Positions 1,243 to 59,200 of a stretch of 64,000 nucleotides of DNA are shown one piece after another. A model generated the notes under the pieces. The model saw only the letters and a program-made list of their open reading frames with translations. It did not search any database and was not told where the DNA came from. Position 1 is the stretch's first letter; every line of letters starts with the position of its first letter. This stretch comes from Verrucomicrobiota bacterium JB023 (GTDB lineage: Bacteria; Verrucomicrobiota; Verrucomicrobiia; Verrucomicrobiales; Akkermansiaceae). Where the stretch lies: the NCBI GenBank assembly GCA_030673895.1, contig JAUTCR010000059.1:62001-126000 (forward strand), written 5' to 3'. A program made the position numbers and the translations under genes.

Positions 1243-3375
1243 GTGACTTTCCCCGACTCCCTCCTCTTTGGCGTGGCGAATGCCGACCATCAAGTTGAGG
1301 CCTACGATCCTGACCATCCCGACGTCTGGGACCTCTGGGAAAAGACCCAAAAGCTGACGCCACGGAAGCGAGCCGCCGACTTCTGGCATCGCTACCCGGA
1401 GGACCTCGAGCGCGCTGCCTCCCTCGGTTGCAAGATCTTCCGCTTCTCCATCTCCTGGGCCCGGGTGCAGGAGGCCGATGGCTCTTGGAATATCGAGGCG
1501 CTCGATCATTACCGCAAAATCGCCGAGCAAATCCGCTCCCACGGCATGAAGGTCATGGTGACCCTCGTCCACTTCACGTGGCCGGTTTGGCTGGAACGGG
1601 AGGGCGGCCTCATCGCCTCCACCTTTCCCGACCGGTTCGCCGCCTATGCGAAGAAGGTCGCCACCCATCTCGGAGACCTCGTCGATTACTGGGTCAGCTT
1701 CAATGAGCCGACCCAGCTCGTTTACGGCTTCATCAAACCTTGGTGGCAGAACCGCTATTACATGCCCCCCGGTCTCCCTGCCGGTTCAGGTGCCTCTGGT
1801 GAGGCGGAGGCTCTGGGCAAGCTGATTCCCAATCTCTTCCTCGCCCACACCCGGGCCCGGGTGTGCATTAAGGAGCTACGTCCCGAGGCCAAGGTCGGGG
1901 TCAATCCACTCGTCACGGGATTCCCTCCCTGGCTCCAGAACTTTCTCGACAATCAACTGCGCAGGGAATGGCTCCTCCGCGCGATGTATCGCTTCAGCAT
2001 GGCCGAGCCCCTCATCACCGAGCGGGCGAAGGTGGACATCGTGATCGGGGGCCTCACCTCCGAGAGCCATCATCGCCTCAGCTACTCGACGCCCTACGCC
2101 GTGACCGGCAAGGCCATCATCGTGCTGGCCGACTCCTCCATCCAAGACCTTGATGACTTGGCGGGGAAAAAGGCCGCCTACGTGGGCGAAACCGGAGTGG
2201 GAAAAATCGCAACCACTCACTTGCCGGACGGCTGTGAGCTGGTCCGCTTCAATCATGTTGAGAAGGCCAGACAAGCTCTCACCTCCGGCGAGGTGAGCGC
2301 AATTTACGGGGATGAACTCCTCATCCTACCTGATCAATTGGGTGACAAGGACCGCTTCCGGCTCCTCGTCAAGGGGCTCACCCGCGAGACTCACGCCGTT
2401 GGCCTCCCCATCGGCCACAGCGGACTCCTCCATCTGGTGGACAACGTGATCGCGGATTTCCGATGCGAGTATTTCGGAGCCTGCGAGGTGGAAAGCGAGG
2501 AGGAAGCCACGGGCGATACGGTCATCCCCCTCTCGCTGGCTGACTACTTTGCGGGGAAAGTGGGTAAGCCGAAGCTGAAGGATGGCGAGGGACTGCGCCG
2601 CATCCGGCGTCGCGGTCGCCTGAAGGTCGGCATCCGGGAGGACGCTCCCGGCATGTGTGAGAGCTGCCCCACCCCCGGCCTCGAGGTAGCGCTCGCCAAG
2701 GCGGTGGCCCAAGCCATCTTCGAGGATCCCGACAAGGTGGAGTTCATCAAGCTGGCCCCCACCCACAGCATCAAGGCACTGGAGACCAAGGCCGGAGTTA
2801 TCAACAAGGTCTGGCGCTATACGGGCACCATCGGCCTGATCGCGAACTCCAATTGGTGGTATCTCGGCTCGAAGGGCAAGCTTCCCGAGAACCTCTGTCC
2901 CGCTGAGTGCCACGGGGCCCACGACTTCGTCGGCCTCGATTATTATTGGGGGCTCCCCACCACTCGTCTCCATGAATTCCACCGTCTCATCGAGGCCGGA
3001 GAGGGACGCTTCCTCAATGCCCCCGTCTGGCCGGAGGGCCTCGGCCACGCGCTCCGCCACCTCCATCGGTGGTTTCCCGATCAAGAGCTTCTCATCATTG
3101 AGAATGGCTGCGTCCCCATCGCCGATGGCGTCACCCGGCAAGAATACCTGCGGGTCCACCTGGATCAGGTCGCCCAAGCCTGCGCGGACGGGCTCCCCAT
3201 CTCCGCCTACCTCTGCTGGTCCCTCACCTCCAATCGGGAGTGGGGCCACCCCTTCACCGATCAGACCGACTTTGGCCTCTACCACATCGCCATGGATACC
3301 GATCCCGATCTCAAGCGTGTCCCTAGCCCGGAGGTCGACTACTATCGGAAGGTCATCGCGAATCGCTCAATCTGA
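1243..3375 (+). CDS. GH1 glycosidase with an inserted, circularly permuted solute-binding (SBP_bac_3) domain
   Basis: Glycoside hydrolase family 1 retaining beta-glycosidase of 710 residues; members normally have about 440-480. The GH1 parts are residues 1-262 and about 517-710: FPDSLLFGVANADHQ at the start (Q17), HFTWPVWL, the acid/base motif SFNEP (E155), FVGLDYYWG, the nucleophile motif IIENG (E620) and CWSLTSNREW near the end. All expected catalytic positions are present, so an active enzyme is likely. Residues 263-516 are foreign to GH1 and match an amino-acid-type periplasmic binding protein with its two lobes in swapped order (separate entry). There is no signal peptide, so it should act in the cytoplasm on imported oligosaccharides. 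GTG start; an unusual feature is that removing the insert leaves a normal 456-residue GH1. Substrate unknown. Confidence 0.93.
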   Translation: MTFPDSLLFGVANADHQVEAYDPDHPDVWDLWEKTQKLTPRKRAADFWHRYPEDLERAASLGCKIFRFSISWARVQEADGSWNIEALDHYRKIAEQIRSHGMKVMVTLVHFTWPVWLEREGGLIASTFPDRFAAYAKKVATHLGDLVDYWVSFNEPTQLVYGFIKPWWQNRYYMPPGLPAGSGASGEAEALGKLIPNLFLAHTRARVCIKELRPEAKVGVNPLVTGFPPWLQNFLDNQLRREWLLRAMYRFSMAEPLITERAKVDIVIGGLTSESHHRLSYSTPYAVTGKAIIVLADSSIQDLDDLAGKKAAYVGETGVGKIATTHLPDGCELVRFNHVEKARQALTSGEVSAIYGDELLILPDQLGDKDRFRLLVKGLTRETHAVGLPIGHSGLLHLVDNVIADFRCEYFGACEVESEEEATGDTVIPLSLADYFAGKVGKPKLKDGEGLRRIRRRGRLKVGIREDAPGMCESCPTPGLEVALAKAVAQAIFEDPDKVEFIKLAPTHSIKALETKAGVINKVWRYTGTIGLIANSNWWYLGSKGKLPENLCPAECHGAHDFVGLDYYWGLPTTRLHEFHRLIEAGEGRFLNAPVWPEGLGHALRHLHRWFPDQELLIIENGCVPIADGVTRQEYLRVHLDQVAQACADGLPISAYLCWSLTSNREWGHPFTDQTDFGLYHIAMDTDPDLKRVPSPEVDYYRKVIANRSI
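2029..2790 (+). other. Circularly permuted SBP_bac_3 insert inside the GH1 protein
   Basis: Residues 263-406 (2029-2460) match the second half of an SBP_bac_3 domain: KVDIVIGGLT, YSTPYAVTGKAIIV, DLDDLAGKKAAYVG, ALTSGEVSAIYGD and GLPIGHSGLLHLVDNVI. Residues 407-453 are a charged linker. Residues 454-516 (2602-2790) match the first half: RGRLKVGIREDAPG, GLEVALAKAVAQAIF, DPDKVEFI and SIKALETK. In an ordinary domain KALETK would run directly into KVDIVIGG, so the natural chain has been opened there and its original ends joined by the linker. The Arg that holds the alpha-carboxylate of amino-acid ligands (in the usual ITPER motif) aligns with S275, while the lobe-2 Asp (D357) is kept. The ligand is therefore probably not a standard amino acid. 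Family assignment is from motif reading. Confidence 0.85.
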
Positions 3376-3507
3376 CGACCTTCCAATTTCCCCACAAAAG
3401 ACCGAAAGAATACAACTGCCCACCAAGTAACCGAGACACAATTGGCAAACTTAATGTTTGCTATACAGAAAGAACAAGCCGTCGCCTCCGCGCGCAACCT
3501 ACATTTC

Positions 3508-5076
3508 ATGAAGCCACTTCTTCTCCTCCTCGCCTCCGCGTCCCTGCTCATGGCAGACAAGAAGCCCAACATCGTCTTCTTCCTCGTTGACGATCTGGGC
3601 ATCCAGGACCTCACCATCGAGGGCTCGACCTTTTACGAGACCCCACGCATCAGCCAACTTGCCAAAGAGTCGATGCGCTTCACCAACGGGTACTCCACCT
3701 GCCAGGTCTGCTCCCCTTCCCGCGCCTCGATCATGACCGGCCAATACCCGCCCCGCGTCGGGATCACTGACTACATCGGTGCTCCCACCGGTCTCGACTG
3801 GAAGCGGAATGACCCCGTCATGCCTGCTGAATATGTGCGCAACCTGCCGCAGGAGCTGACCACCTTGCCCGAGGCACTCAAAGCTGGAGGCTACGCCACC
3901 TGGTTCTTCGGCAAGTGGCACCTGAACGCGCTCACAGATAAGGAGAACTTCCCCGAGCACCACGGATTCGACGTCAACGTCGCCGGCCACCACCGCGGCC
4001 AACCGCCTGCGGGCTTCTTCGCCCCCTTCGAGAATCCCCGCATCCCCGAGGAGCCGGAGCCGGGCACCAATCTCACCCTCTGGCTCGCCGAGCAAACCAG
4101 CGAAACAATCAAAAAGCACCAAGAGTCGAACGCCGAGCAACCCTTCCTCGCCTACCTCTCCTTCTATACCGTCCACAGCCCCATCCAGTCGACGAAAGAA
4201 CTTTGGTCCAAGTACCGCGACAAGGCGGCTAAGAATCCACATGAGGGCGACCGCTTCATCATCGACCGCACCTCTCCCGTCCGCCAAGTGCAGGACCACC
4301 CCGTCTATGCCGGCATGATGGAGATTCTCGACGACGCCGTGGGCAACGTTCTGGACACCATCTCCGAGCTGGGCTTGGAGAACGATACCATCGTCATCTT
4401 CACCGGTGACAATGGCGGCGTGTCCGCTGGTGATGGCAAGGCGACCGCCTGCCTTCCCTTCCGTGGAGGCAAGGGCCGTCAATGGGAGGGTGGCATCCGC
4501 GCCCCCCTTTACTTCAAGGTCCCCGGCGTGACCAAGCCTGGGTCCACTACCGATGTCCCTGCTACCGGGACCGACTTCTTCCCGACCTTGCTCGATCTCG
4601 CAGGGCTTCCTCTCCTCCCGGAAAGCCACGTCGACGGGGTTTCCCTCAAGCCCCTTCTCTCCGGCGAGGGCTCCATCCCCGAGCGCGCCCTCTTCTGGCA
4701 TTACCCACACTTTGGCAATCAGGGCGGTGAGCCTTCTTCCATCATCCGTGAGGGTGACTGGAAGCTGATCCAATACTTGGAAGATGGCCGGCTCGAGCTC
4801 TACAATCTGGCCGAGGATATCGGCGAGCAAAACAACCTCGCCGAGGAGCACCCGGATAAGGTCAAGGATCTCGTCGCCAAGTTGCTTCAGTTCCAGATCG
4901 ACACCAAGGCCAAGTTCCCACCGAAGGATCCCCGCTTCGATCCCGAGCGGAAGAAGGAATACCTTCACCGCATGCACACCGTGCACAAGGCTCGCCTCGA
5001 GAAGCAGGCCGCAGCCTTTCTGGAGCCTGACTACCAGCCCAATGAAGACTGGTGGGGTTCCCTTCCCAAGGACTGA
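3508..5076 (+). CDS. Secreted type I sulfatase (arylsulfatase A-like)
   Basis: Formylglycine-dependent sulfatase, 522 residues from the ATG at 3508, which begins a signal peptide (MKPLLLLLASASLLMA, cleavage near residue 16). The modification motif is CSPSR with the formylglycine cysteine at C68. Metal-binding DD (D28, D29) lies in FFLVDDLG, and FFGKWHL and FTGDNGG are the later conserved motifs. A C-terminal subdomain with WKLIQYLEDGRLELYNL is typical of S1 sulfatases. It would remove sulfate esters from a polysaccharide or glycan outside the cytoplasm; the exact S1 subfamily and substrate cannot be read by eye. It follows the GH1 gene by 132 bp on the same strand, so the two may serve degradation of one sulfated glycan. 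The longer frame back to 3442 is rejected because it would bury the signal peptide. Confidence 0.94.
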   Translation: MKPLLLLLASASLLMADKKPNIVFFLVDDLGIQDLTIEGSTFYETPRISQLAKESMRFTNGYSTCQVCSPSRASIMTGQYPPRVGITDYIGAPTGLDWKRNDPVMPAEYVRNLPQELTTLPEALKAGGYATWFFGKWHLNALTDKENFPEHHGFDVNVAGHHRGQPPAGFFAPFENPRIPEEPEPGTNLTLWLAEQTSETIKKHQESNAEQPFLAYLSFYTVHSPIQSTKELWSKYRDKAAKNPHEGDRFIIDRTSPVRQVQDHPVYAGMMEILDDAVGNVLDTISELGLENDTIVIFTGDNGGVSAGDGKATACLPFRGGKGRQWEGGIRAPLYFKVPGVTKPGSTTDVPATGTDFFPTLLDLAGLPLLPESHVDGVSLKPLLSGEGSIPERALFWHYPHFGNQGGEPSSIIREGDWKLIQYLEDGRLELYNLAEDIGEQNNLAEEHPDKVKDLVAKLLQFQIDTKAKFPPKDPRFDPERKKEYLHRMHTVHKARLEKQAAAFLEPDYQPNEDWWGSLPKD

Positions 5077-8531: not shown

Positions 8532-9128
8532 TCAAGACTTCGCCGCCTTCTTCTTTTTCTTCTTCGTGAGCTTCTCCAGCTCATCCCACTGCTCTTGGCT
8601 CACGATATAGCCCACGCAATTGTCGGAGCCACAGCGACAAGGATGGTCCTCGTAGCACTCGAGGTCGAACCCGTAATCAAAACTTAACTCTTCGCCCTTC
8701 TTCAAGTCACGCTTGGCGTAGATGAAGATGCGATCCTCCTCCGTATAAGCTTCGCAATTGGGGTCACAAGAATGGTTGATGAGGCGCGCGATGTTCCACT
8801 CGACGCTCCCATCGAGATCCCATTCCTCATTGAGAGTGAAGATGTAAACTGCGGCATCGCCCGTCTCCTTCGCCCTGTCGATTTGGGCCCAAGCCCGTCG
8901 CTCGCTCTCTTCCTTGTCGATCTTCTCTCCAACGTACTCGACGATGCGAGTCTCCTCCGGGATGTCCATGGCAGCATAGACTCCCCGTCCGTGGATTTCA
9001 GAATCGCGCACCTCCACCCACTTGCTTTGGCCCCGCTTTTTGAGCTTCTCAAGCTGTCGCTGGGCAGCTGCTGCGTTCTTGAGCGCCTTGCGCTTTTTCT
9101 TGGCCGATCGGCCGTCCTTTTTTGCCAT
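8532..9128 (-). CDS. SET-domain protein lysine methyltransferase with post-SET zinc site
   Basis: A 198-residue SET protein. Residues 1-35 are very basic (KK, RK and Ala-rich). The SET core runs from about residue 38: RDSEIHGRGVYA (SAM-binding N-part), RLINHSCDPN at 115-124 (the NHS/C pseudoknot), and KKGEELSFDYGF at 143-154. A post-SET cysteine cluster follows (C164, C166 and C171 in HPCRCGSDNC), which with C121 could hold one zinc. The end is a Lys-rich tail (KKKKKKAAKS). The family transfers methyl groups from SAM to lysine side chains; bacterial targets are mostly unknown. It lies 11 bp after a secreted protein gene and before the thioredoxin-fold gene, so it is operonic, but the neighbours do not reveal a target. 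Confidence 0.92.
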   Translation of the reverse strand: MAKKDGRSAKKKRKALKNAAAAQRQLEKLKKRGQSKWVEVRDSEIHGRGVYAAMDIPEETRIVEYVGEKIDKEESERRAWAQIDRAKETGDAAVYIFTLNEEWDLDGSVEWNIARLINHSCDPNCEAYTEEDRIFIYAKRDLKKGEELSFDYGFDLECYEDHPCRCGSDNCVGYIVSQEQWDELEKLTKKKKKKAAKS

Positions 9129-40563: not shown

Positions 40564-40718
40564 TCCGCAAGCTAGCTTCCTCGCTGCCCGAGGGAAGCCT
40601 TAAAGCTCGGTTGTCCGGAGGTCATCAAGAGGTGGTCTGACGAAATTTTTTTCCTTCGACCAGTAACCTTCACGAGAAGAGTCCGTGGAATGGGGTGGAA
40701 AACGACCCCATTCATCCC

Positions 40719-43700
40719 ATGAACTTAAAAACAACGCTCATCACCTTAATCGCTGCTCTCGCTGCCAGCCTTTCCGCACAGGAGATTTCTGTCCGGGGAG
40801 GCAATGGACTCGACCTCTTCATCGCCAGTGGCGACACCAGCCCAAGGTCGGCCGATGGAACCGACTTTGGCTCAACCAATGTCACCGGCGGAGCCATCGA
40901 ACGCACCTTCCGCATCCGGAACTTGCAACCATCGGACGGCTTTCCCTTCACCGGCGACCTCACCGTTTTAATTACCGAGAACTCCAGCCACTTCAGCATC
41001 ACAGCGGCACCCCTCTTTCCCATCGCGGAAGATAGCTTCGCCGACTTCACGATACGCTACGACCCGACGAGCACAGGCACACACACCGCAACCATCTCGA
41101 TTGCCAATAATGATCCCGATGGAAATGAGAACCCCTACACCTTTCGAGTCACCGGAGCCGGAGTGGGAGTTCCGGAAATTTCGGTCTTCGGTAGCCCGAA
41201 CTTGTTAGGTGATGGCGATCCGATCTCCGATGGCCAAACCACGACCAGTACCAGCGAGGGGACAAACTTCGGAACAGTCGACGCCCTCGGTATCGACGTC
41301 AGCAAGACCTTTCGCATCAGGAATACAGGCACTGGCACCTTGACCTTATCGTATTCCGATAACTCGAACGAGTTCACCGCATCAGGACTCTCCTCCTCCA
41401 TTGCTCCAGGTTCTTTCGACGACTTCACCATCACCTTCAATCCCCGGCAAAGCGGCACTAGAACCGCGACGGTCTCTCTCACCACCAATGACTCGAACGA
41501 AAACCCCTTCACCTTCGCTCTGCGCGGGCTCGCGCAAGCACCGGAAATTCAAGTTCGTAATGAAGGAGACACCCTCAACATCAATGATGGGGACACCACC
41601 CCGAACACAGTCGATGGGACAGACTTTGGCAGCGTTCTCGTTACGGCAGGTGCCGTAGAAAGAGTCTTCCGAATCGAAAACCAAGGTTCCTCCAGCGGTC
41701 TCCTATTCGCGACGGGACTCACCGTCGACATCAGTGACAGCTCCAGCCAATTCACCGTTCTCGATGATCCCTTGTTCGCAATTCCCCCGGGAGGTTTTCA
41801 CGAGTTCCGGATCCTCTTCAATCCTAGCGTCCCCGGCACCCACGATGCCACCATCACCCTGACCCACAACGATCCCGACGGCGACGAAAACCCCTACACT
41901 TTCAGGGTCACCGGCGTTGGCGTGGGCAGTCCCGAGATACAGGTATTCGGTAGTCCCAATCTCATCAGCGATGGCGACCCGATCATCGACGGACAAACCT
42001 CGGTCGACCAATCCGAGGGCACCGACTTCGGAACGGTTGATGCCCTGGCCCTCATCGACGCAACCAGAACCTTCCGCATCCGGAACACCGGCTCCGCTCC
42101 TCTGACGATTGGCTACTCGGACGACTCTGACGAGTTCACCGCATCGGGGGTCGCGCCGACTATCTCGCCGGGTTCCTTCGACGACTTCACCATCACCTTC
42201 AATCCGCAACAAAGCGGAACCCGGACCGCGACGGTATCGCTCAATACAAACGACTCCAACGAGGATCCCTTCACCTTCACTCTGCGGGGATTCGCACAAG
42301 CACCGGAAATCCAAGTCCGCGACGAAGGCGACACGCTGAGCATCAATGATGGCGATAGCATCCCTTCCTCCGCGGATGGAACCGACTTCGGAAGCCGGGA
42401 CTTGGCAGAGCTGCCCCGCGACCACGTCTTCCGGATTGAGAACCAAGGCTCCTCAAGCGGTCTTCTACTGCCCGCCACTCCGCTCACGGTCACTCTCTCG
42501 GAGGACTCACCCCATTTTTCCATCGTATCCGCCCCACCTCTTCCCATCCCAGCCGGCGGCTTTGCCGAATTCACCGTCCGCTACCACCCCACTTCCACCG
42601 GCCTTCACGAGGCCACCATCACTCTTCGTCACAACGATCCCGATGGGGGTGAGGATCCCTACAACTTCTCGGTGCAAGGTGAAGCCACCGGAGAATCCGA
42701 GATCGCGGTCTTCGTCAATCCGCTTCTCCTCCTCGATGGCGAAGCTCTGTCTAACAACGCCGCTACGAGTTCTCTCACCGGCACCGATTTTGGCATCGTT
42801 GATGCCCTCTTTCCCATCGACAAATTCATCACCTTCCGGGTGAAGAACCTGGGTTCTATCCCTCTAACAACCGGACCCATCTCGGTATCAGGCGACCGCA
42901 ACCACTTCGACATCTCCGAACCCTTGTCCTCATCCATCCCTGCGGGAGGTTTCGATGATTTCACCATCACCTTCGATCCCGTGGCCAGTGGTCAACTGAG
43001 TGCGACCCTTTCCATTCCGAACAACGATCCGGATGGCAACGAGGACCCCTTTCTCATTAACCTGACAGGCTTTGCCCGTGCTCCCGAGATCGAGGTCGCG
43101 GGAGGCCAGCTCTTTGAGCATGTCATCCGCCATGGAGACCTCACCCCTCGTCCGGAGGATAATACCGATTTTGGCACGACCAACGTGACGGGCGGAGCCA
43201 TCGAGAACACCTTCCGCATTCTCAATCTGGAAGAACCCGACGGCGTCCCCGGCAGCGGCACGTTGACCGTGCTCAGCGTGACTGTCGATGACCCCAATTT
43301 CTCCGTAGCCTTCCCTCCTTTGCCCGTCTTCCCCTTGGTCATCGATGAGCAAGCGGTCGGCGAGATTCGCCTCCGTTTCGATCCCCTCACGCCGGGGACT
43401 CACACCGCCAACGTCACCATCGTTCATAATGATCCCGATGGCTTCGAGTCTCCTTACACCTTTCAAATTCGTGGAGTCGCGGACGAGCCTATCCTGTCGG
43501 TCTTCGGTGGTCGCGGAGGGAGCATCGAGCTCCTCGATGATGCTCCCGCGCGAGGAGAATCAGGTACTATCTTTCCGGTAGTTGAGTTTAGCGACGCTCC
43601 CGGAGCGCCCCTGACGTTTACAATCCGCAATGCCGGCCTCGACGATCTCCTCTGCTCCTACACCCCAACAATTCCCGAGTTCAGGGTCGATACCAGGACA

Positions 43701-44453
43701 ACCCGCGTTCTCCCCGGCGAGAGCGAAGCCTTTGAGGTGAGCTTCGAACCCACGCGTCCGGGGGAATATGAAGGGAGTATTGCCATCATCAGCAACGACA
43801 TCGATCAATCCCCCTTCTTCATCAACCTTCGCGCCGAGTCCACTGCGCCCGCTATCGAAGTCTTCGGTGGAGCTTCCCTTGATCTTCCGCTCGGTAATGG
43901 AGCGACCGCTACCTCTCCTGAAACGGGCACCGACTTGGGCGAGCTTGAGCAGAATGCGGAGGCAGTGACCCGCTCCTTCCTGGTGAAGAATTCCGGCAAC
44001 AGCGACCTCGCCATCACGAGTATCGCCTGCGACCATCCAGCCTTTCCGATCTCCTCCCCGCCCGGAACTCTCGCCCCCGATGGCGGTGGCAAGTTCAACC
44101 TCACCTTCTCACCCGAAGAAATTGGTGAGCAGCTCGCTACGGTCACTCTCGTAACCAACGATCCGCTGAGTTCCCCGTTCACATTCACGGTGAAGGGCGA
44201 GGTTCTCCCCCCTCAGCTCACTCACCAAAAGCTTATCCAATCCTTCTCCTTCTCGAATGAGCAAAAGGAACTGATCTTTCGCCCCCAAACCGGGAAGACC
44301 TACTGCGTGACCACCTCGGTCGACGGTCAAGTCTGGCTTGAGGTTGACGGTCTCACCGGCTTGAGCGGAGAAGAGGACATTCAGGTAGACCTCTCCGGAT
44401 TCCAACCTTCTCCGGAATCTCCCACCCGATTTTTCCGAGTGGAAGAAGAGTGA
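40719..44453 (+). CDS. Secreted ASH-repeat (choice-of-anchor D) giant protein
   Basis: A 1244-residue exported protein: signal peptide (LKTTLITLIAALAASLSAQ) then nine ASH/HYDIN-type Ig-like repeats of about 120 residues, each ending in a pattern like ATISIANNDPDGNENPYTF. The repeats alternate in two kinds. Type A has TDFGS...GAIER.FRI.N and ends NDPDGNENPYTFRV; type B has SEGT.FGTVDAL and ends SGTRTATVSLTTNDSNENPF. The order is A-B-A-B-A-B-A-B-A, with the first two pairs the most alike. A C-terminal domain (EQKELIFRPQTGKTYCVTTS) is shared with other secreted proteins of this phylum. ATG at 40719 fits the signal peptide. Likely a surface or adhesion protein. Confidence 0.88.
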   Translation: MNLKTTLITLIAALAASLSAQEISVRGGNGLDLFIASGDTSPRSADGTDFGSTNVTGGAIERTFRIRNLQPSDGFPFTGDLTVLITENSSHFSITAAPLFPIAEDSFADFTIRYDPTSTGTHTATISIANNDPDGNENPYTFRVTGAGVGVPEISVFGSPNLLGDGDPISDGQTTTSTSEGTNFGTVDALGIDVSKTFRIRNTGTGTLTLSYSDNSNEFTASGLSSSIAPGSFDDFTITFNPRQSGTRTATVSLTTNDSNENPFTFALRGLAQAPEIQVRNEGDTLNINDGDTTPNTVDGTDFGSVLVTAGAVERVFRIENQGSSSGLLFATGLTVDISDSSSQFTVLDDPLFAIPPGGFHEFRILFNPSVPGTHDATITLTHNDPDGDENPYTFRVTGVGVGSPEIQVFGSPNLISDGDPIIDGQTSVDQSEGTDFGTVDALALIDATRTFRIRNTGSAPLTIGYSDDSDEFTASGVAPTISPGSFDDFTITFNPQQSGTRTATVSLNTNDSNEDPFTFTLRGFAQAPEIQVRDEGDTLSINDGDSIPSSADGTDFGSRDLAELPRDHVFRIENQGSSSGLLLPATPLTVTLSEDSPHFSIVSAPPLPIPAGGFAEFTVRYHPTSTGLHEATITLRHNDPDGGEDPYNFSVQGEATGESEIAVFVNPLLLLDGEALSNNAATSSLTGTDFGIVDALFPIDKFITFRVKNLGSIPLTTGPISVSGDRNHFDISEPLSSSIPAGGFDDFTITFDPVASGQLSATLSIPNNDPDGNEDPFLINLTGFARAPEIEVAGGQLFEHVIRHGDLTPRPEDNTDFGTTNVTGGAIENTFRILNLEEPDGVPGSGTLTVLSVTVDDPNFSVAFPPLPVFPLVIDEQAVGEIRLRFDPLTPGTHTANVTIVHNDPDGFESPYTFQIRGVADEPILSVFGGRGGSIELLDDAPARGESGTIFPVVEFSDAPGAPLTFTIRNAGLDDLLCSYTPTIPEFRVDTRTTRVLPGESEAFEVSFEPTRPGEYEGSIAIISNDIDQSPFFINLRAESTAPAIEVFGGASLDLPLGNGATATSPETGTDLGELEQNAEAVTRSFLVKNSGNSDLAITSIACDHPAFPISSPPGTLAPDGGGKFNLTFSPEEIGEQLATVTLVTNDPLSSPFTFTVKGEVLPPQLTHQKLIQSFSFSNEQKELIFRPQTGKTYCVTTSVDGQVWLEVDGLTGLSGEEDIQVDLSGFQPSPESPTRFFRVEEE

Positions 44454-44604
44454 CCCTTTCCGTCGCCAATCCCCTTGACCGGCCGCTGCTCTTCGATTGA
44501 ATGGCAGCGGTCGGCATCGTTTCCGGCCGAGTGAGCCCCTCCACCAAATGACCGCTCCGTTCCAGAGCCCGGCAAGCGGATTTCGCTGCAACTCAGGGCG
44601 AATC

Positions 44605-45333
44605 TCAAGCTCGCTCCAGCACCGCGCGAACGAAGCGCAGTTCATCTTCAAGCTCGTCCTGTCCATCGACCGTTTCCGCCACCGCCTGTTCGAAGTGGCT
44701 CCGGTAACGCTCGCGAAAGCGAAAAATTGCCACCTTCACCGCGCTTTCCCGCAGCCCAAGGGCAGCGCCCACTTCCCTCAACTTGCTCCCCGCATCACCC
44801 TGCAGGAACGGGACAAAGGCCTCGAACAACTCGCCCTTGCCGTTCCTACGATAATCATCCTCCAATCGTACCATGGCTTCATCCATCAATTGCCAGACCC
44901 ATTGCCGCTCGAAGGCCTCCGCCGGTGTCTCCTCAGAGTCTGTGAGCGTGTCGTCAATGCCCTCGCCGTTGACGGGCAAGAACGAGATCGTCCCGCCACG
45001 TTTGGCCGCACTCTCCTTCCTCGCCTGATCGATGAGGAAGTTCTTCAAAGCAGCGAGAAGATAAGATCGCAATCGCCCGCCACCCTCCCGTATCGAGAGG
45101 AAACTGTCCTTCGCCAGAAGCGCGGCGAGAAAATCCTGAGTCAGATCCTCCGCTGCTTCGCGGCTGCGCCCATTCCGCCGCACGAAAGCATACAGCGGAG
45201 CCCAATAGCTACGGCATATCTCGTCCAATGCCCGGTCCGCCCGACTACTGCCTGTGGAGCCCGCCGCCCGCACCAGGCTCCAGCGCGTCTCAGGAAATCT
45301 GGCCTGAATCCGACTCTCGGGCTCATCCCTCAT
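44605..45333 (-). CDS. ECF-family RNA polymerase sigma factor
   Basis: A 242-residue sigma factor. FPETRWSLVRAAG at the start is the signature of a group of ECF sigma factors common in Planctomycetota and Verrucomicrobiota. Region 2 covers YWAPLYAFVRRNGRSREAAE, DLTQDFLAALL and a GRLRSYLLAALKNFLIDQAR helix; region 4 is LREVGAALGLRESAVKVAIF. A spacer of about 50 residues (RGGTISFLPV...) separates them. It is transcribed divergently from a Ser/Thr kinase gene with 48 bp between the starts, so the two likely form one signalling unit in which phosphorylation or autoregulation controls the sigma factor. That partnership is inference. Confidence 0.9.
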   Translation of the reverse strand: MRDEPESRIQARFPETRWSLVRAAGSTGSSRADRALDEICRSYWAPLYAFVRRNGRSREAAEDLTQDFLAALLAKDSFLSIREGGGRLRSYLLAALKNFLIDQARKESAAKRGGTISFLPVNGEGIDDTLTDSEETPAEAFERQWVWQLMDEAMVRLEDDYRRNGKGELFEAFVPFLQGDAGSKLREVGAALGLRESAVKVAIFRFRERYRSHFEQAVAETVDGQDELEDELRFVRAVLERA

Positions 45334-45381
45334 CGTGCGTCATCCTCCTTATTGGGCGGCTAAACTCAATTCTGAAATCCC

Positions 45382-47592
45382 ATGCTCTCTCCGCAACCCG
45401 AACGCTGCCCCCAGTGCACCCGGCCTCTTCACAAGAGCCGGGACCAATCCTGGTGCCCCGTCTGCGTCGCGAAGACCACCCTCACGGAGGGGGCGGCACA
45501 GCGCCATCTTCGCCCCGTCATCTCCCCCGCAGAGCTGGCTCCCCTCTTCCCCCAGCTTGCCATCGAGGATCTCCTCGGCATCGGAGGCATGGGCCTCGTC
45601 TATCGCGTGCGCCAGTTGAGCCTTGAGCGGCTCGCCGCTTTGAAGGTCATCCCTGACGATGAAACCAATCCAGCCTTCGCTGAACGCTTCGAGCGAGAGG
45701 CCCGCTCCCTCGCCCGGCTCAATCATCCGGACATCATCCAAATCTACGACCATGGCCGGGTGGAAGGCTGGTTCTATATCCTGATGGAATACGTCGAAGG
45801 GCCCGACCTCGCCACCGTGATGCAGGACCGTGGCAAGCTACCCGCCTCCGAGGCGATCCCGCTCTTCACCCGCCTCTGCACAAGTCTTGCAGCAGCCCAC
45901 CAGGCCGGCATCGTCCACCGGGACCTCAAGCCTGCCAACCTGCTCTGTACAAAGAACTGCCTCAAAATCGCGGACTTCGGACTCGCCAAGCTTTCTGAGG
46001 CTGGCGACCTCTCCCTGTCATTGACCGGTGCGCAAGACACCCTGGGGACTCCCTACTACATGGCTCCCGAGCAACATGCTACGGGAACCGTGGTAGATGA
46101 ACGGGCCGACATCTATGCGCTGGGTGTCTTACTCTACCAGATGTTGACCGGAACCTTGCCCAAAGGCCGCTTCAAGCCTGCGTCCAAGTTGGCGAAAATC
46201 CCCTCCCGACTCGATGCCATCATTCACCAAGCCCTGCAGCCCGATCCTGCGGACCGCTTCCGCTCGGTCAACGAGCTCCTCGCCGCCCTGAAGCGCACGA
46301 CCCGTCCTTGGAAGCTCCTTCTTGTTCTTATCATCAGCTCGCTGGCTACCGCGACAGCTTTCCTCCTACCAGGCGAACCCGAGCCTCCCGATTCACAGCC
46401 CTCTTCCCCCCGGCAGTTCAGCCCCACCTTCATCCCGCTCTCCCCGCCCAAGCCTTCACCGTCCTACTACGGCACCTTCAGTTCCGCAGCCGCCAATCTT
46501 CTCGCCATAGGCGCGCCCGACGAAGGCTACTTCTCGGGCAAGAGCGACGAGCCCGGAGCCATCCACCTTTACGAAATCGGCAATGCCAGAAAACGACCAA
46601 AGCTGATCTCGACCCTCCGCTCACCCTCCGCAGCCGCAGGAGACTTGTTTGGCACCTGCCATTTATTCTCTGACGACGGTCGCCTTCTCACAGCTTCCGC
46701 TCTCGCCTTCGGCGCCGAGGGTCATTCTGAGCCGGTGATTCATCTCTTCGAAGCAGTCGGGGGAAATTGGTCCGCAACGACAACCCTCACTTTCCCCGGT
46801 CGGCTCGACTTTGGAAAGGTCGCTCCTCGGGCCTTCCCCATCGGGCAGCAACAACTCGTGGTCACCTTCCCCGACCTCCCCGCCGCGGAAGCCATCCTTA
46901 TCTACGAGAAAGACCGGAGTTCCTCATGGACGAGGATCGACCGACTGGCTCCTCCGGTCGGCCTCAATCGGGACTCCCAATTCGGCTTCCAATGCAAAGT
47001 CTTTGCCGACCAACTTTTCATCTCTTGTCACCGGCGCAATGATGGCTTCGCCCAGCGTTCCGGAGCCCTCTATGTTTATGAGAAAGACGAGTCCGGGCGG
47101 TGGGAGCTCTTCCAATCACTCTATCATCCCGATCCAAACCTTCTCTCCTACTTCGGCCTCGACTTCACCCAACCAGCTCCCGGGGTGCTCGCGGTCAGTG
47201 CCTTCGGCCACCCCGCCAATGGCCTGATCGGCACTGGCTCCGTTGTCATCTTCAAGAAGAACCCCGCAAGCCGACGCTGGCAAGCTAGCCAAACGCTTAC
47301 TCCCAGCGAACCGACGGGGAGCCCGGAAGCCTTCGGGCAACAACTCCTCACCTTCGGCAAGCACCTTGTAGTCCTCGGCTTGGCCGGGTCCCGCGGTGAC
47401 AAGAGCCTATCCTCGCGGGCTCACTTTTTCATCCAAACTAATGGGCACTGGGAAGCCGACGGAATCCTTGATAGCCGGGAAAAGGGCTGGCTTTGGCAGG
47501 GCCGCGCATTGGGCCTCCCTCATCACCTTCTCCTCCCTTCGCCAAAAGAAAACCTGGTGGAACTCTTCCCTCTTCAGCCGCCGGGCCAGTGA
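45382..47592 (+). CDS. Transmembrane Ser/Thr protein kinase with periplasmic FG-GAP-like propeller
   Basis: A 736-residue receptor kinase. Residues 9-28 are a zinc ribbon (C9, C12, C25, C28). The kinase domain follows: glycine loop GIGGMG at 66-71, K88, HRDLKPAN with D181, DFG at 198-200, and GTPYYMAPEQ. One transmembrane helix lies at about 310-329 (WKLLLVLIISSLATATAFLL). The outer part is a repeat array of seven or so strands-rich units (LLAIGAPDEGYFSGKSD, LFGTCHLFSDDG, FGFQCKVFADQLFISCHRR, YFGLDFTQ) like FG-GAP/beta-propeller proteins. It may sense an envelope ligand. It is divergent from the ECF sigma gene. Confidence 0.92.
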   Translation: MLSPQPERCPQCTRPLHKSRDQSWCPVCVAKTTLTEGAAQRHLRPVISPAELAPLFPQLAIEDLLGIGGMGLVYRVRQLSLERLAALKVIPDDETNPAFAERFEREARSLARLNHPDIIQIYDHGRVEGWFYILMEYVEGPDLATVMQDRGKLPASEAIPLFTRLCTSLAAAHQAGIVHRDLKPANLLCTKNCLKIADFGLAKLSEAGDLSLSLTGAQDTLGTPYYMAPEQHATGTVVDERADIYALGVLLYQMLTGTLPKGRFKPASKLAKIPSRLDAIIHQALQPDPADRFRSVNELLAALKRTTRPWKLLLVLIISSLATATAFLLPGEPEPPDSQPSSPRQFSPTFIPLSPPKPSPSYYGTFSSAAANLLAIGAPDEGYFSGKSDEPGAIHLYEIGNARKRPKLISTLRSPSAAAGDLFGTCHLFSDDGRLLTASALAFGAEGHSEPVIHLFEAVGGNWSATTTLTFPGRLDFGKVAPRAFPIGQQQLVVTFPDLPAAEAILIYEKDRSSSWTRIDRLAPPVGLNRDSQFGFQCKVFADQLFISCHRRNDGFAQRSGALYVYEKDESGRWELFQSLYHPDPNLLSYFGLDFTQPAPGVLAVSAFGHPANGLIGTGSVVIFKKNPASRRWQASQTLTPSEPTGSPEAFGQQLLTFGKHLVVLGLAGSRGDKSLSSRAHFFIQTNGHWEADGILDSREKGWLWQGRALGLPHHLLLPSPKENLVELFPLQPPGQ

Positions 47593-53208: not shown

Positions 53209-56200
53209 ATGAAGATGAAGTTCATTTCTCTTTTCTCGGCACTTGCCGTCTCCTCACTTCTCGCAGCGCCCGACACCGTTGACCCCACTTTCCAAGCCAA
53301 CGCCGGGACCTATTTCGATGCCGACTCCTTCGGAGGAATCTCCTCATCCCTGGTGCAGCCTGATGGCAAGATCATCTTCGGCTCCAATGAGATGCCCGCC
53401 TTGGGTGATACCAAACAAGTCTCCCTGCTCCGGCTCAATCCAGATGGCACCTTGGACACCGACTTCCAAGCCGACAATGACCCCGATGGTGCAGGAAATG
53501 GCATTCTCTACGTAGGCCAAGGTTGGCCCGAAGTCCACGCCGTCGACCTTCAATCCGACGGCAAGATCATCGCCGCCGGCGTGATGAATGGCTATAAGGA
53601 CGACACGCTCCCAAGCATTGAGTACGTCTCTAGTATCCTCCGCTTCAATGCGGATGGCAGCTACGACGACAGCTTCCTTGCCTATGGCACACAGCCGGAC
53701 GGGGGGCTGAATTATATTGAGGAGATCGCCATCCAGCCTGACGACAAGATCCTCTGCATGGGCGGATTCCGAGGGTTTCGAGGAAAGAACGATGCCTCTT
53801 ATGCCACCCGCTACGGGATTGCCCGGCTCAATGCCGACGGCTCGCTCGATACTTCCTTCGAGGTATCGCCCCAAGACTTCGCGGTTCCTCTCGGTGCAGC
53901 CAATGTATCCGGCTTCTTCCGCCAAGCGTCGGTTGCTCCGGATGGCGATATTTATGTGATCGGGGAATGGTCTTGGGGGACCTCCTTCCCCAAGGAAAGC
54001 TTGCCCGTGCTGGCCCGGCTCAATGCGGATGGCTCCCGTGACTTTTCCTTTAACCCCACTCTCCCGACCGATCTCTCCTACCTTACCGGAATCGCTCTCG
54101 AGCCGAATGGGGAACTCACCTTCCTCGCAGAGAGAGAGACCGGGGACTCCATCATGCTCCGCTACACTCCCTCCGGCGGCATCTCCTCCTCCTTTAATCT
54201 CGCCAGCGGGCTCGGCCTGTTAGACGCCCGCCCCCTCCGCCGCGACCCCACCGGCAAGTTTCTGCTCACCTCGCGCGCGAACACCTCCGAGCCCCGCAAT
54301 CATCTCATCCGGCTCAACAACGACGGGAGCATTGACTCCTCCTTCGAGGCCACCGCCGCCTGGGTCACCGACGCCTCCCGGCCCCCCTTCTTCAGCAGCT
54401 TCATCACCAGTGCCGACGGCAGCATCTACTCAGGTGCGTTCTTTGACCGCGTGGAGGGAGAGACCTTTCACAAGATCGTCAAGTTCGAAGGTGACGCCAT
54501 CCCTAGTAGCCCGGGCACCATCCTGATGGCCAGCTTTGCTCTCTCGGTAAACGAGGAGGACGGCTCACTCCTCATCCCTGTCACCCGCACAGGCGGCACC
54601 ACCGGAGCGGCCAGCATCGACTATTCCTTCTCCGACACAAATGCCACCAATGGAGATGATTACACGGGCACCAGCGGCACCATCACCTTCCCGGCCGGTA
54701 TCGGTGGGACGAAGTATATCAACGTCCCCATCACCATCGACACCGACGTGGAGACGGTGGAAGTCTTTTCTGTCACTCTCTCCAATGCGACCGGAGCGGT
54801 CGCCGGCAATCAGCTGACGACCCAAGTCACCATCCTCGATTCCAACTCGCCGCCGCAGATCATCTCCCAGCCCTTTGGTCTGGAAGTCTCTGCCTACGAG
54901 GCCTTCGTGCTATCCGTGGGAGCGCTCTCCGGAGCCAACCCGGTCACCTATCAGTGGCAGAGGGACGGCGTCGATATCCCCGGGGCCACTGATCCTCTCT
55001 ACTTCATCAGCAATGCGGATCCAGCGGCAGACCATGGCGATTACACCGTGACGGTAACGAACCGCAATGGTTCGGTGACCTCCTCGGTCGCCACCATCGA
55101 CGTCCTGCCCGTCCTGGCCAATCTTGATCCCAGCTTCTCGATCAGTGGCGTTAACCAGCCAGGTAGTTTCGTTCTCCTCCCCGACGATTCCGCGCTCATG
55201 CTGGATGGCAATTCCTTCAACGGCTACACTCTCCGCAAGCTAGACAGCACCTTCACCGCTGATCCGGCCTTCACCGTCACCACAACACCCTCGGGTAACA
55301 ATCCCGCGAACCAAGCCTACCCGAATCCTATCCCTCTGCCCAATGGCCAATTGCTCGTCCGGGGCAGCTTCTCGCAGGTCAATGGCGAGGATCACCTCTA
55401 CCTCGCCCGCCTCAATGCCGACGGCACCGTAGATCCCTCATTCAATGCCTTCTTCAACGACACATTTCAGATCAACGGCAATGACACTTACATCCAGTTT
55501 CTCACTGGCGTCGGGGTGACAGCTGACGGCTCGGTCCATGTGATGGTGCGCTCGGCGACCCAAGGTAGCCGCCTCTACCGTCTCAATTCGGATGGCTCCA
55601 TCGACGACAGCTTCGATCATCCTATCAATTACTCGACCAACGCCTACCTCGACAGCTTTCTGGAAGTCGATGACGGCTCCATCCTGATTGGATACACCGC
55701 GGGTGGCTTCGGGTCCCTGCAGCGGGGTATCCGAAAAATCCGCCCCGATGGCAGCCTCGATCCCGACTTCAATCATTCAACGGGATACAACGGTAATATT
55801 GTCGACATGGAGCAACTCCCTGATGGTCGGATTGCGGTCATCTACTGGAACAAGCTCGAATTCCTCGCTCCCGACGGAACGGTTTTGGAAACCCACACCT
55901 TCACCACCAACCCGACCTCGCTCAATCTCTTTCGTGGACGCCTCCTCATCACCGGTATCAACGAAGCGGAGGGCACAACCCTCCCTGGTGTTGCTCTCTT
56001 CTCCCTCGATGGAACTCTCGATAGCGACTTCCCCGGCGGCCCCGGTCCCGATGGCAACGTGATTGAAGCCGAAATTGATTCCAGTGGTCGCATCATCGTG
56101 CAGGGCAGCTTCACCTCCTGGAACGGCACTCCTGCTCCCGGCATCGCGCGTCTCGTCATCGACCGCGCGGAAATCTCCCTGGCCTCAGGCACGGCCCAGG

Positions 56201-59200
56201 TCATGGAGAACGCTGGACCTCTTACTATCGAACTCGTCCGCTACGGTGATACCAGTAGCCTGGCATCCGTCCGAGTCACCAGCACCGATGGCTCCGCGCT
56301 TGCCGGAGCAGACTACCTTGCCTTGGACGAAGTCGTCACTTGGGCTGCCGGTGATTCCTCTCCGAAATCGGTCTCCCTCACCCTCATCGACGATCCTGAT
56401 ATCGAACCAGCCGAATCGCTGACCCTCCACCTGTCCGAAGCCAGCGGCGGCGCCCCGGTCATCACCGAGATGGCCATCACCCTTCTTGATGACGACTCCC
56501 TTCCGCAGATCACCCAGCAACCTCTCAACGTCGCCGTCTTAGATGGCAATCCCGCATCCTTCACCGTCGCCGCAACCAGCCCCGAAGCGTTGAGTTACCA
56601 ATGGTTTTTCAATGGCCAGGCCATCGCTGGTGCGACCGCGGATACTTACAGCCTCCCAATGGTCACGACAGCGGAAGAAGGCGACTACCATGTCGTCCTT
56701 ACCAACCTCTACGGCAGCACAACGTCGGCCACGGCCAAGCTGGAGATCATTCCCGATCCCACCTTGATCTCGCCTCTCTATAGCAACCCTGCGACTTGGG
56801 CCGGAGGAACCATTTTCATCGTCGTGCCCGCCCCTGATGGCGGGGCTTACCTCGGCGGCAGCTTCATCAACTTCGACGGAGACGACGACCGCGACTACCT
56901 CGTCAAAATCAACGAGGACGGCAGCGTGGACGAAGCTTTCGATCCCCCCCTCCTCACTAGCAGCGTAACCGATATGGCACTCTCCTCATCTGGAGACCTA
57001 ATTGTGGTGGGCTCCTTCCCAGGGCGAGTCTTGAAGCTCGCGGCTGATGGCACCGAGGACACCTCCTTCAGCTCGGCTCGTGGAACTGGAGGAAATGAAG
57101 AGGCCAAGTCGGTAGCTCTTCTTCCCGACGGCACCATTCTCGTCGCCGGTGACTTCTTGAGCTGGAACGGCACCACCATTGCCCAGTATAACTTGAACAA
57201 CTCTCACGTCGTTCGATTGAATCCCGACGGAACCCTTCACCCCGTCCGTTACCCCAACCCCGGCCATAGTAACCACTACAATATCGACTCGAACGAACTC
57301 AAGGTCCTCCCCGACGGTTCCTTCCTCGTCAGCTATGACTCGACGTCCAGCTCCTACGCCGTCGTCCGGCGCTACCAGGCAGACGGGTCCGAGGTGACCA
57401 GCTTCAATTACTCCTTCAACTCCCCGCGGGTCGATCATATCGACGTCTTTCCCGACGGCGACTACCTCTTCGCCGGTGACAACTCCCTCTACAAAGTCAG
57501 CCCGACGGGAAGCGTAGTAGCAAGCTATGATACCAGCTCGGACTGGTTCACCGCCGAGATCCAAATTGACGGAAAGCTCATCGCCAGCCGCAACTTCAAT
57601 CAGCCAAGAGTCAGCCGCTACCTAACCGATCAGCAAACTGACCCCAGCTACAATATGGGGTCTAAGTTCCCCTCTAACGTCCACTCGCTAGCGCTCCGCC
57701 CTGACGGTCGCCTCTGGGCTGCGGGGCAATTCTCAAGCTTCAATGGCATCAGCGTGCCCGGCGTCGTCTTGTTGGACAACACCCTCATCCCCCTTGCGAT
57801 CTCCAGCCAGCCAGGCTCCCTCGTTCTGGACCCAGGCAGCACTGCCACCTTCACCTGCGAAGCGGTAGGGACCAGCGCCATCAGCTACCAATGGTCAAAG
57901 GATGGTGACCTACTACCAGGCGAGACCTCTCCCTCCCTCACCTTGCCTAATGCGCAAGAGGCTGACGAGGGCAGCTACACCTGCACCGTGACCAATGGAT
58001 CCGGCAGTGTGACCTCCCAGACGGCCACCCTCGACGTCCTCGGCGCCCCGGAGATTACCGCTCTCTCCCCCGATGCTTCAGCCTACGAGGGGTCCAGTAT
58101 TTCTCTCACTGTCGAAGCCTTTGGCGCCGGCACCCTCGCTTACCAATGGCGCAGAGACGGCTCCGACCTCCCGGGTGAAACGGACGCCACTCTCACCCTC
58201 TCGCCCGTCCAAGCCAGCGAGGCCGGCAGCTACCAAGTCACCATCAGCAACTCGCTCGGCTCCATCGTGAGCGATCCCATCATCGTCACGGTCACCCCGA
58301 ATCTCGCCGCCGTGCAACCCGACTTCACCGCCCTCACCCTCGGTAGTGGAAGCGTCTATGCCATCCTGCCCCTCGCTGATGGCAACGCCCTCGTGGGTGG
58401 CGATTTCACTTCCCTCAGCGATGGCATCAACACGTCTGGCGCTCGACTCGCCCTCGTCTCCCCAGCAGGGGAAGTTCTCAGCGATAGCTCACTCAGCGCG
58501 AACAGCACCGTCTACGACTTCTTCCTCCAAGCTGATGGCAAGATCCTCCTCACCGGGAACTTCACCGACGTCAATGGCTCGCCGCGAGGCAAAGCAGCCC
58601 GTCTCAATAGCGACCTCACGCTCGATACCTCCTTTGTGCCTGTTAATGCCGGGTTCGGCACCGCCCGCGCCATTATCGAGGATACCGATGGCAAGGTGGT
58701 CATCAGCGGAGAATTCTTCAATTGGAATGGGCTCCCCGACACCTCCTACCTTGTCCGCCTCAATAGCGACGGCAGCCACGACGACACCTTCAAGAGCTAC
58801 GCTGGCAGCTACGTCCGCAGCCTCCAGCTGCTTCCTAACAACCAGTATCTACTTGGCGGCTGGATCCTCGATTACAACGGCCAGACCAATGCCGACGGCC
58901 TTGTCCAAATCAATAATGATGGCACCGCCGTCACCCCTCCGCCTTACGCTCCCGGCTTCTTCTATTCTGATGCCGCCCTCCTCTCCTCCACCGGCGACCT
59001 CTATTCGGCGAATGCCTTTGGCAATGACCTTCGCAAGTATTCTCCCACTGGCACTAACGACCCGACCTTCTGGTCCTCGATCAATGCGAACGGCAAAACC
59101 CTTGCTATTGCAGAGACCCCCGACGGTAAGATTCTCCTCGGCGGCGACTTCACCACCGCCCATGCGCAGACGACCAATCGCATCACCCTCGTCAATCCGG

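Follow-up and report, generated by a model that had tools for sequence, protein, structure and literature searches.

The gene described here raises the question of what a binding domain would be doing inside the barrel of a glycosidase, and whether it could switch the enzyme. The window, a 64,000-nucleotide stretch of DNA from Verrucomicrobiota bacterium JB023, contains an open reading frame of 710 codons on the forward strand (1243-3375) that starts with a GTG at 1243 (Table 1). Pfam recognizes GH1 in the window protein (E=4e-52) in two stretches, one on each side of an insert of about 254 residues, and an alignment of 20 full-length homologues shows E155 (in NEP) and E620 (in ENG) to be invariant. 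This agrees with the first-pass annotation, which had claimed complete GH1 motifs flanking the insert. Likewise invariant in these 20 homologues are Q17, H110, N154, Y568, W659, E666 and W667; together with the two glutamates we take these to be GH1 active-site residues, E155 presumably being the acid/base and E620 the nucleophile. The AlphaFold2 model of the whole 710-residue chain (mean pLDDT 74, pTM 0.63) contains the (beta/alpha)8 barrel and matches GH1 structures over a span of residues 1-709 (Z 35.4, 345 residues, rmsd 2.9). The family profile covers the whole barrel, with one glutamate in NEP after beta4 and the other in ENG after beta7. Judged from sequence and model, the open reading frame encodes a GH1 enzyme that retains the two catalytic glutamates and has a putative ability to hydrolyze beta-glycosides. 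We found no signal peptide in the 710-residue protein, whose GH1 domain begins at residue 2 and whose frame is open for only ten codons upstream of the GTG, and the enzyme is predicted to be cytoplasmic, as had been proposed.

The same annotation had read the insert between the catalytic motifs as an SBP_bac_3 domain in circularly permuted order, and profile, rotation, fold and homologue tests agree on this identification. In Pfam, the window protein alone gives no SBP_bac_3 match, only weak NMT1 and phosphonate-binding matches, and its SBP_bac_3 identity is thus shown through profiles and relatives. A Pfam SBP_bac_3 match is present in 6 out of 20 members (best 4.5e-7). Searching with and without swapped halves gave matches for just one of three other members, which the swap improved from 7e-4 to 1.1e-6. 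The re-ordered insert of member L040 exceeded the SBP_bac_3 gathering score. NCBIfam SBP models place residues 260-408 on the later part of the model and residues 450-519 on its N-terminal part (positions 30-98 of NF008885), that is, in swapped order; in the L049 insert, residues 263-405 correspond to positions 82-234 of TIGR01096 and residues 456-519 to positions 31-98 of NF008885. When re-ordered, a profile of seven inserts gives one collinear match to AncQR (4zv1), 5-212 to 8-219, with E=1.8e-27. In natural order, the insert profile matches AncQR in two out-of-order stretches, 1-148 to 68-220 and 198-234 to 8-47, the second of which is weak alone. With 15 binding proteins of native order from relatives, insert residues 263-409 align to the second part of each (22-32% identity), and with the insert re-ordered the alignment reaches well into the other part for 11 of these 15. 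In the rotation test, all 20 inserts were cut at every fifth residue, and each version was scored with a model built on native SBPs of the same order. Mean scores reached a plateau, at about 46.7 bits, when the cut fell between residue 413 and about residue 468-478; the natural order scored 38.4 bits, the worst cut (near residue 293) 16.7 bits and shuffles at most 1.7 bits. This plateau places the native ends within the linker and indicates that KALETK and KVDIVIGG, which had been proposed to be formerly contiguous, were adjacent in the ancestor. As sequence evidence, the profile and rotation tests are decisive for the permutation.

The fold points the same way. A fold search with the whole model returned only GH1 among the matches listed, and the insert was therefore folded apart (pLDDT 76, pTM 0.73). 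Family-3 binding proteins align to this model at Z 12-13.7 across some 140-166 residues (in one case lobe 2 alone, 89 residues); the best match has Z 13.7 over 163 residues at rmsd 5.7, and GlnBP (1wdn) gives Z 12.1 over 154 residues at rmsd 3.7. The matches listed are type-II binding proteins, in line with the two-lobed fold proposed earlier. They pair model residues of about 1-165 with residues of about 57-240 of the binding-protein chains; the fold aligner is sequential, so the moved N-terminal piece cannot be paired. With the SBP_bac_3 proteins of the GlnBP-LAO-ArgBP group of ABC binding proteins, the insert thus shares the type-II two-lobed fold and equivalents of T70 and D157. It differs from these exported or lipid-anchored transporter partners in that its elements are permuted, that it lies inside a predicted cytoplasmic enzyme with neither a signal peptide nor a conserved transporter neighbour, and that the carboxylate arginine and the aromatics of the pocket are lost; the native C-terminal tail is not recognizable in it. 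Chance resemblance, a frameshift or an assembly chimera is an exceedingly improbable explanation: the Pfam SBP_bac_3 model alone does miss the window protein, but it is contradicted by the profile match of E=1.8e-27, a frame open throughout, a predicted fold matching binding proteins, and orthologues that come from three named strains and from many separate assemblies. It is near certain, from sequence and model comparisons, that residues 263-517 are a circularly permuted SBP_bac_3 domain.

A type-II binding protein builds lobe 1 from the N- and C-terminal parts of its chain and lobe 2 from the middle. Here, the opening point falls within lobe 1, between the helix that ends in KALETK and the strand KVDIVIGG, so that lobe 1 consists of three pieces and lobe 2 is one continuous excursion (Table 1). 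The earlier description of lobes in swapped order, with lobe 2 first (263-406) and lobe 1 last, holds for the insertion and the permuted order, but it is imprecise, as the cut divides lobe 1 itself: residues 263-286 and also 382-411 are part of lobe 1, and lobe 2 is confined to 287-381. This boundary of lobe 2 is fixed independently by the isolated domain 2 of TmArgBP (6gpm), which matches insert-model residues 32-123 (chain residues 289-380). Within the linker of about 41 residues, pLDDT is below 50 for residues 418-447.

Table 1. Features of the GH1 gene, in window coordinates; lobe and domain assignments are predicted from sequence and model.
Feature	Residues	Position	Strand	Evidence
Whole gene, GH1 glycosidase with inserted permuted SBP_bac_3 domain	1-710 (710 aa)	1243..3375	+	ORF, Pfam, AlphaFold2 model
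GH1 barrel, first part (beta1-beta5)	1-262	1243..2028	+	Pfam, alignments, model
Codon of presumed acid/base	E155	1705-1707	+	GH1 alignment
Family-specific extra loop PWWQNRYYMPPGLP	166-179	1738-1779	+	Alignment with GH1 proteins
Inserted, circularly permuted SBP_bac_3 domain	263-517	2029..2793	+	Profile, rotation, fold and homologue tests
Lobe 1 piece A (KVDIVIGG...STPYA)	263-286	2029..2100	+	
Lobe 2 (absent in L054, L009 and L056; corresponds to isolated domain 2 of TmArgBP, 6gpm)	287-381	2101..2385	+	
Lobe 1 piece B (return strand and last helix)	382-411	2386..2475	+	
Linker, native C terminus to native N terminus	412-452	2476..2598	+	Model, identity, rotation
Lobe 1 piece C, native N-terminal part (RRRGRLKVGI...KALETKA)	453-517	2599..2793	+	
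GH1 barrel, second part (alpha5 to C terminus)	518-710	2794..3372	+	Pfam, alignments, model
Codon of presumed nucleophile	E620	3100-3102	+	GH1 alignment

Members with the whole insert number 32 (including two cut by contig ends), all from Akkermansiaceae/Verrucomicrobiaceae and 49-66% identical to the window protein. Three come from the named strains Roseibacillus persicicus KCTC 12988, R. ishigakijimensis KCTC 12986 and Luteolibacter marinus NBU1238, and the remainder from metagenome-assembled and other genomes; the insert is therefore not an assembly error, and a chimera is likewise ruled out by the many independent genomes. Among 384 genomes from the class, 14 contain the complete permuted insert, and only inside such GH1 open reading frames; nearly all other matches to the insert in these genomes are to the native second part alone. 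No permuted domain was found outside GH1 open reading frames in the 384 genomes, and none in plasmids; the contig scan of genomes finds close relatives only, and the architecture may also occur elsewhere. Viral contigs gave no relative. We also found no close GH1 relative without the insert in 388 genomes of the phylum, the best insert-free GH1 protein being 33% identical, and the top GH1 matches listed run unbroken through the family profile. No RNA elements scored above threshold. Several relatives carry both the native and the permuted SBP_bac_3 form; in the window's own genome, the Pfam model detects no native SBP_bac_3 protein at E 0.001. At one locus (L065, genome G366), about 500 stop-free codons in the same frame run ahead of the open reading frame, which may reflect a fusion or a chance open frame.

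Alignment with insert-free GH1 proteins places the insertion point after beta5 (VGVNPLVTGF) and before alpha5 (NWWYLG...). The beta-alpha side of the GH1 barrel is the active-site side, and by barrel topology the insert should leave the barrel at the rim of the catalytic face. In the whole-chain model, the junctions (237-262 and 511-527) have pLDDT below 50, and placement of the insert over the active site is thus not established by the model. Our favoured reading, which we hold tentatively and put slightly below an even chance, is that the insert is a ligand-closing lid that modulates the enzyme. The architecture shows that a domain derived from a family-3 SBP was opened inside lobe 1, had its native ends joined by the linker, and was put between beta5 and alpha5. 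In the proposed mechanism, the two-lobed insert would still close on a small molecule, and closure would move or rigidify the beta5-alpha5 region and so turn glycosidase activity up or down; lineages without lobe 2 would then have an ungated enzyme. The invariant GH1 catalytic residues and the position of the insert speak for this proposal, and the low confidence in the relative placement of the two domains speaks against it. The position in the beta5-alpha5 connection, on the catalytic face, would also suit an insert that forms part of the aglycone or leaving-group site and captures substrate, for instance a glycoside bearing a particular aglycone, above the catalytic pocket with no separate effector. 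An extra loop of 14 residues (WWQNRYYMPPGLP / PWWQNRYYMPPGLP) directly after the acid/base glutamate (NEP) favours such a substrate-capturing role: it is conserved and mostly invariant across members, has no counterpart in the other aligned GH1 proteins, and may contribute to the shape of the aglycone site. Replacement of the ancestral amino-acid pocket, described below, is also as expected on re-use for a new partner. However, domain placement is not confidently predicted and some members without lobe 2 keep the rest of the insert, and we consider this explanation unlikely.

In GlnBP-type proteins, the amino-acid ligand is held at positions 10, 13, 50, 75, 119 and 157. The 15 native relatives keep D/E10, aromatics at 13 and 50, Arg75, Thr at the 119 position and Asp157 (GlnBP numbering). 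Each of the 20 permuted members in the comparison has R/H at 10, A/T at 13 and P (in one case A) at 50, and in all 20 a two-residue deletion removes Arg75, the ligand-carboxylate arginine. Of the canonical pocket (acid at 10, aromatics at 13 and 50, Arg75, Asp157), only Asp157 is retained, as D357 in 20 out of 20 members, along with T70, as T272 in 18 out of 20. Newly conserved residues (R/H465, P506 and G356) occupy cleft positions beside D357, and a GNQP..W stretch in lobe 2 is invariant in 17 of the 20 members and missing in the window's genus. By alignment, the pocket of the native relatives is rebuilt in every one of the 20 members. As the carboxylate arginine is deleted and the aromatics are replaced, any ligand, including the one proposed to close the lid, would not be an amino acid bound in the canonical manner; more likely candidates are a sugar, a glycoside, an amine or another metabolite. 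No conserved neighbour hinting at a ligand was found in the gene neighbourhoods of family members. That none of the members compared retains the canonical amino-acid pocket weakens the gating proposal, and the new conserved residues at cleft positions help it.

Selection on lobe 2 also bears on gating. In eight of nine wider-clade pairs, dN/dS of lobe 2 is 0-0.13 (0.47 in the ninth), and that of the GH1 part is 0.02-0.13 in wider-clade pairs. Lobe 2 is thus under purifying selection in the majority of close pairs, which argues for gating; the faster evolution of lobe 2 in the window's genus (dN/dS 0.20-0.37), together with the missing GNQP motif there, argues against it. On average, pairs of members are 73-75% identical in GH1, 55-59% in the lobes and 37% in the linker. 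The faster evolution of the insert and the loss of canonical ligand residues would also fit a domain that was gained once and now serves as a spacer or as a folding or oligomer contact without ligand, decaying at lineage-specific rates. Against such decay stand an insert kept in frame in 32 members, lobe 2 dN/dS within the GH1 range in several close pairs, and the maintenance of D357, G356, T272 and the new conserved cleft residues.

The best argument for a decaying scaffold comes from three members (L054, L009 and L056; 602-619 aa matched; L008 is the same protein as L054) that lack residues of about 287-381, from one hinge to the other, with GH1 and the pieces of lobe 1 retained. When only GH1 columns are used, the tree places L054 and L009 with Roseibacillus and L056 in the other clade; a single clade of lobe-2-less members is rejected (p-AU 2e-88), and two changes are needed. 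Lobe 2 was lost at least twice independently with the enzyme retained, which weakens gating. We nevertheless regard a scaffold without ligand as improbable, to the same degree as a substrate-capturing insert; both are real rivals to the gating lid. The same hinge was used in the laboratory to part the lobes of TmArgBP into D1 and D2 (6gpc and 6gpm; PMC11328109), which are constructs of a free binding protein, unlike the natural members without lobe 2. The full reading that builds on the gating lid, a natural single-chain ligand-operated GH1 enzyme with a permuted SBP in the catalytic rim, a rebuilt pocket and a switch removed in two lineages by excision of lobe 2, is possible, somewhat short of an even chance.

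Known systems resemble this architecture in part, and two of them, MltF and a resurrected GH1 enzyme, serve as precedents for the proposed gating. GH1 beta-glucosidases (9u98/8kap, SGR_2426 of Streptomyces griseus; ancestral 6z1h) share the barrel, both catalytic glutamates and the -1 subsite residues; the GH1 structures listed are about 25-31% identical, lack the 14-residue loop after NEP, and none is long enough to hold such an insert. Lytic transglycosylase MltF has an N-terminal regulatory domain that we take to be SBP-like. Muropeptides engage this domain and thereby allosterically activate the enzyme (PMC10746161). MltF thus likewise carries an SBP-like regulatory domain on a glycan-cleaving enzyme, but it acts in the cell envelope, its domain is an N-terminal tandem fusion that is neither inserted nor permuted, its catalytic fold is unrelated, and gating is demonstrated for MltF and only inferred for the GH1 protein. 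In a resurrected ancestral GH1 enzyme, heme bound in the flexible region 227-334 allosterically raises activity; according to its authors, allosteric modulation had not been reported for modern glycosidases (PMC7810902). Residue 225 of the window protein aligns with residue 229 of the resurrected enzyme, which most likely puts the insertion within this flexible region too. Small-molecule allostery there acts through a region starting at the end of beta5, where our insert begins; the ancestral enzyme differs in being a reconstruction that holds its ligand in a flexible region with no extra domain. Among engineered switches, an MBP-beta-lactamase chimera (RG13; PMC3375305) and a xylanase-xylose binding protein chimera (PMC4896006) also have one partner inserted into the other, and in RG13 the inserted partner is circularly permuted. 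These are man-made, and the host is the binding protein in RG13 but the enzyme here.

We found no description of such a protein in the open-access literature. If gating is true, it would be a natural ligand-operated switch in GH1, one of the best-studied families, where none is known (PMC7810902). Nature apparently did what protein engineers do when they insert and permute binding proteins into enzymes. With 32 orthologues, and with the three members without lobe 2 as ready-made controls, the gating question becomes directly testable, and domain gain, permutation, pocket replacement and partial loss can be traced on one tree.

Directly downstream of the gene lies a sulfatase (3442-5076; PF00884 with SGSH_C). 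Two other Roseibacillus loci (L033 and L034) likewise have a sulfatase after the GH1 gene, an order that is not general in the family, and apart from it we found no operon or conserved neighbour of the gene. Elsewhere in the window, positions 8532-9128 on the reverse strand encode a 198-residue lysine-rich protein that reads like a SET-domain methyltransferase. At 40695-47592, a 1252-residue protein of repeated HYDIN/ASH-like immunoglobulin and DUF1573 domains adjoins a 288-residue open reading frame and a 736-residue Ser/Thr kinase-domain protein, and at 53209-59814 there is a 2201-residue protein with Calx-beta, immunoglobulin and DUF5122 beta-propeller domains.
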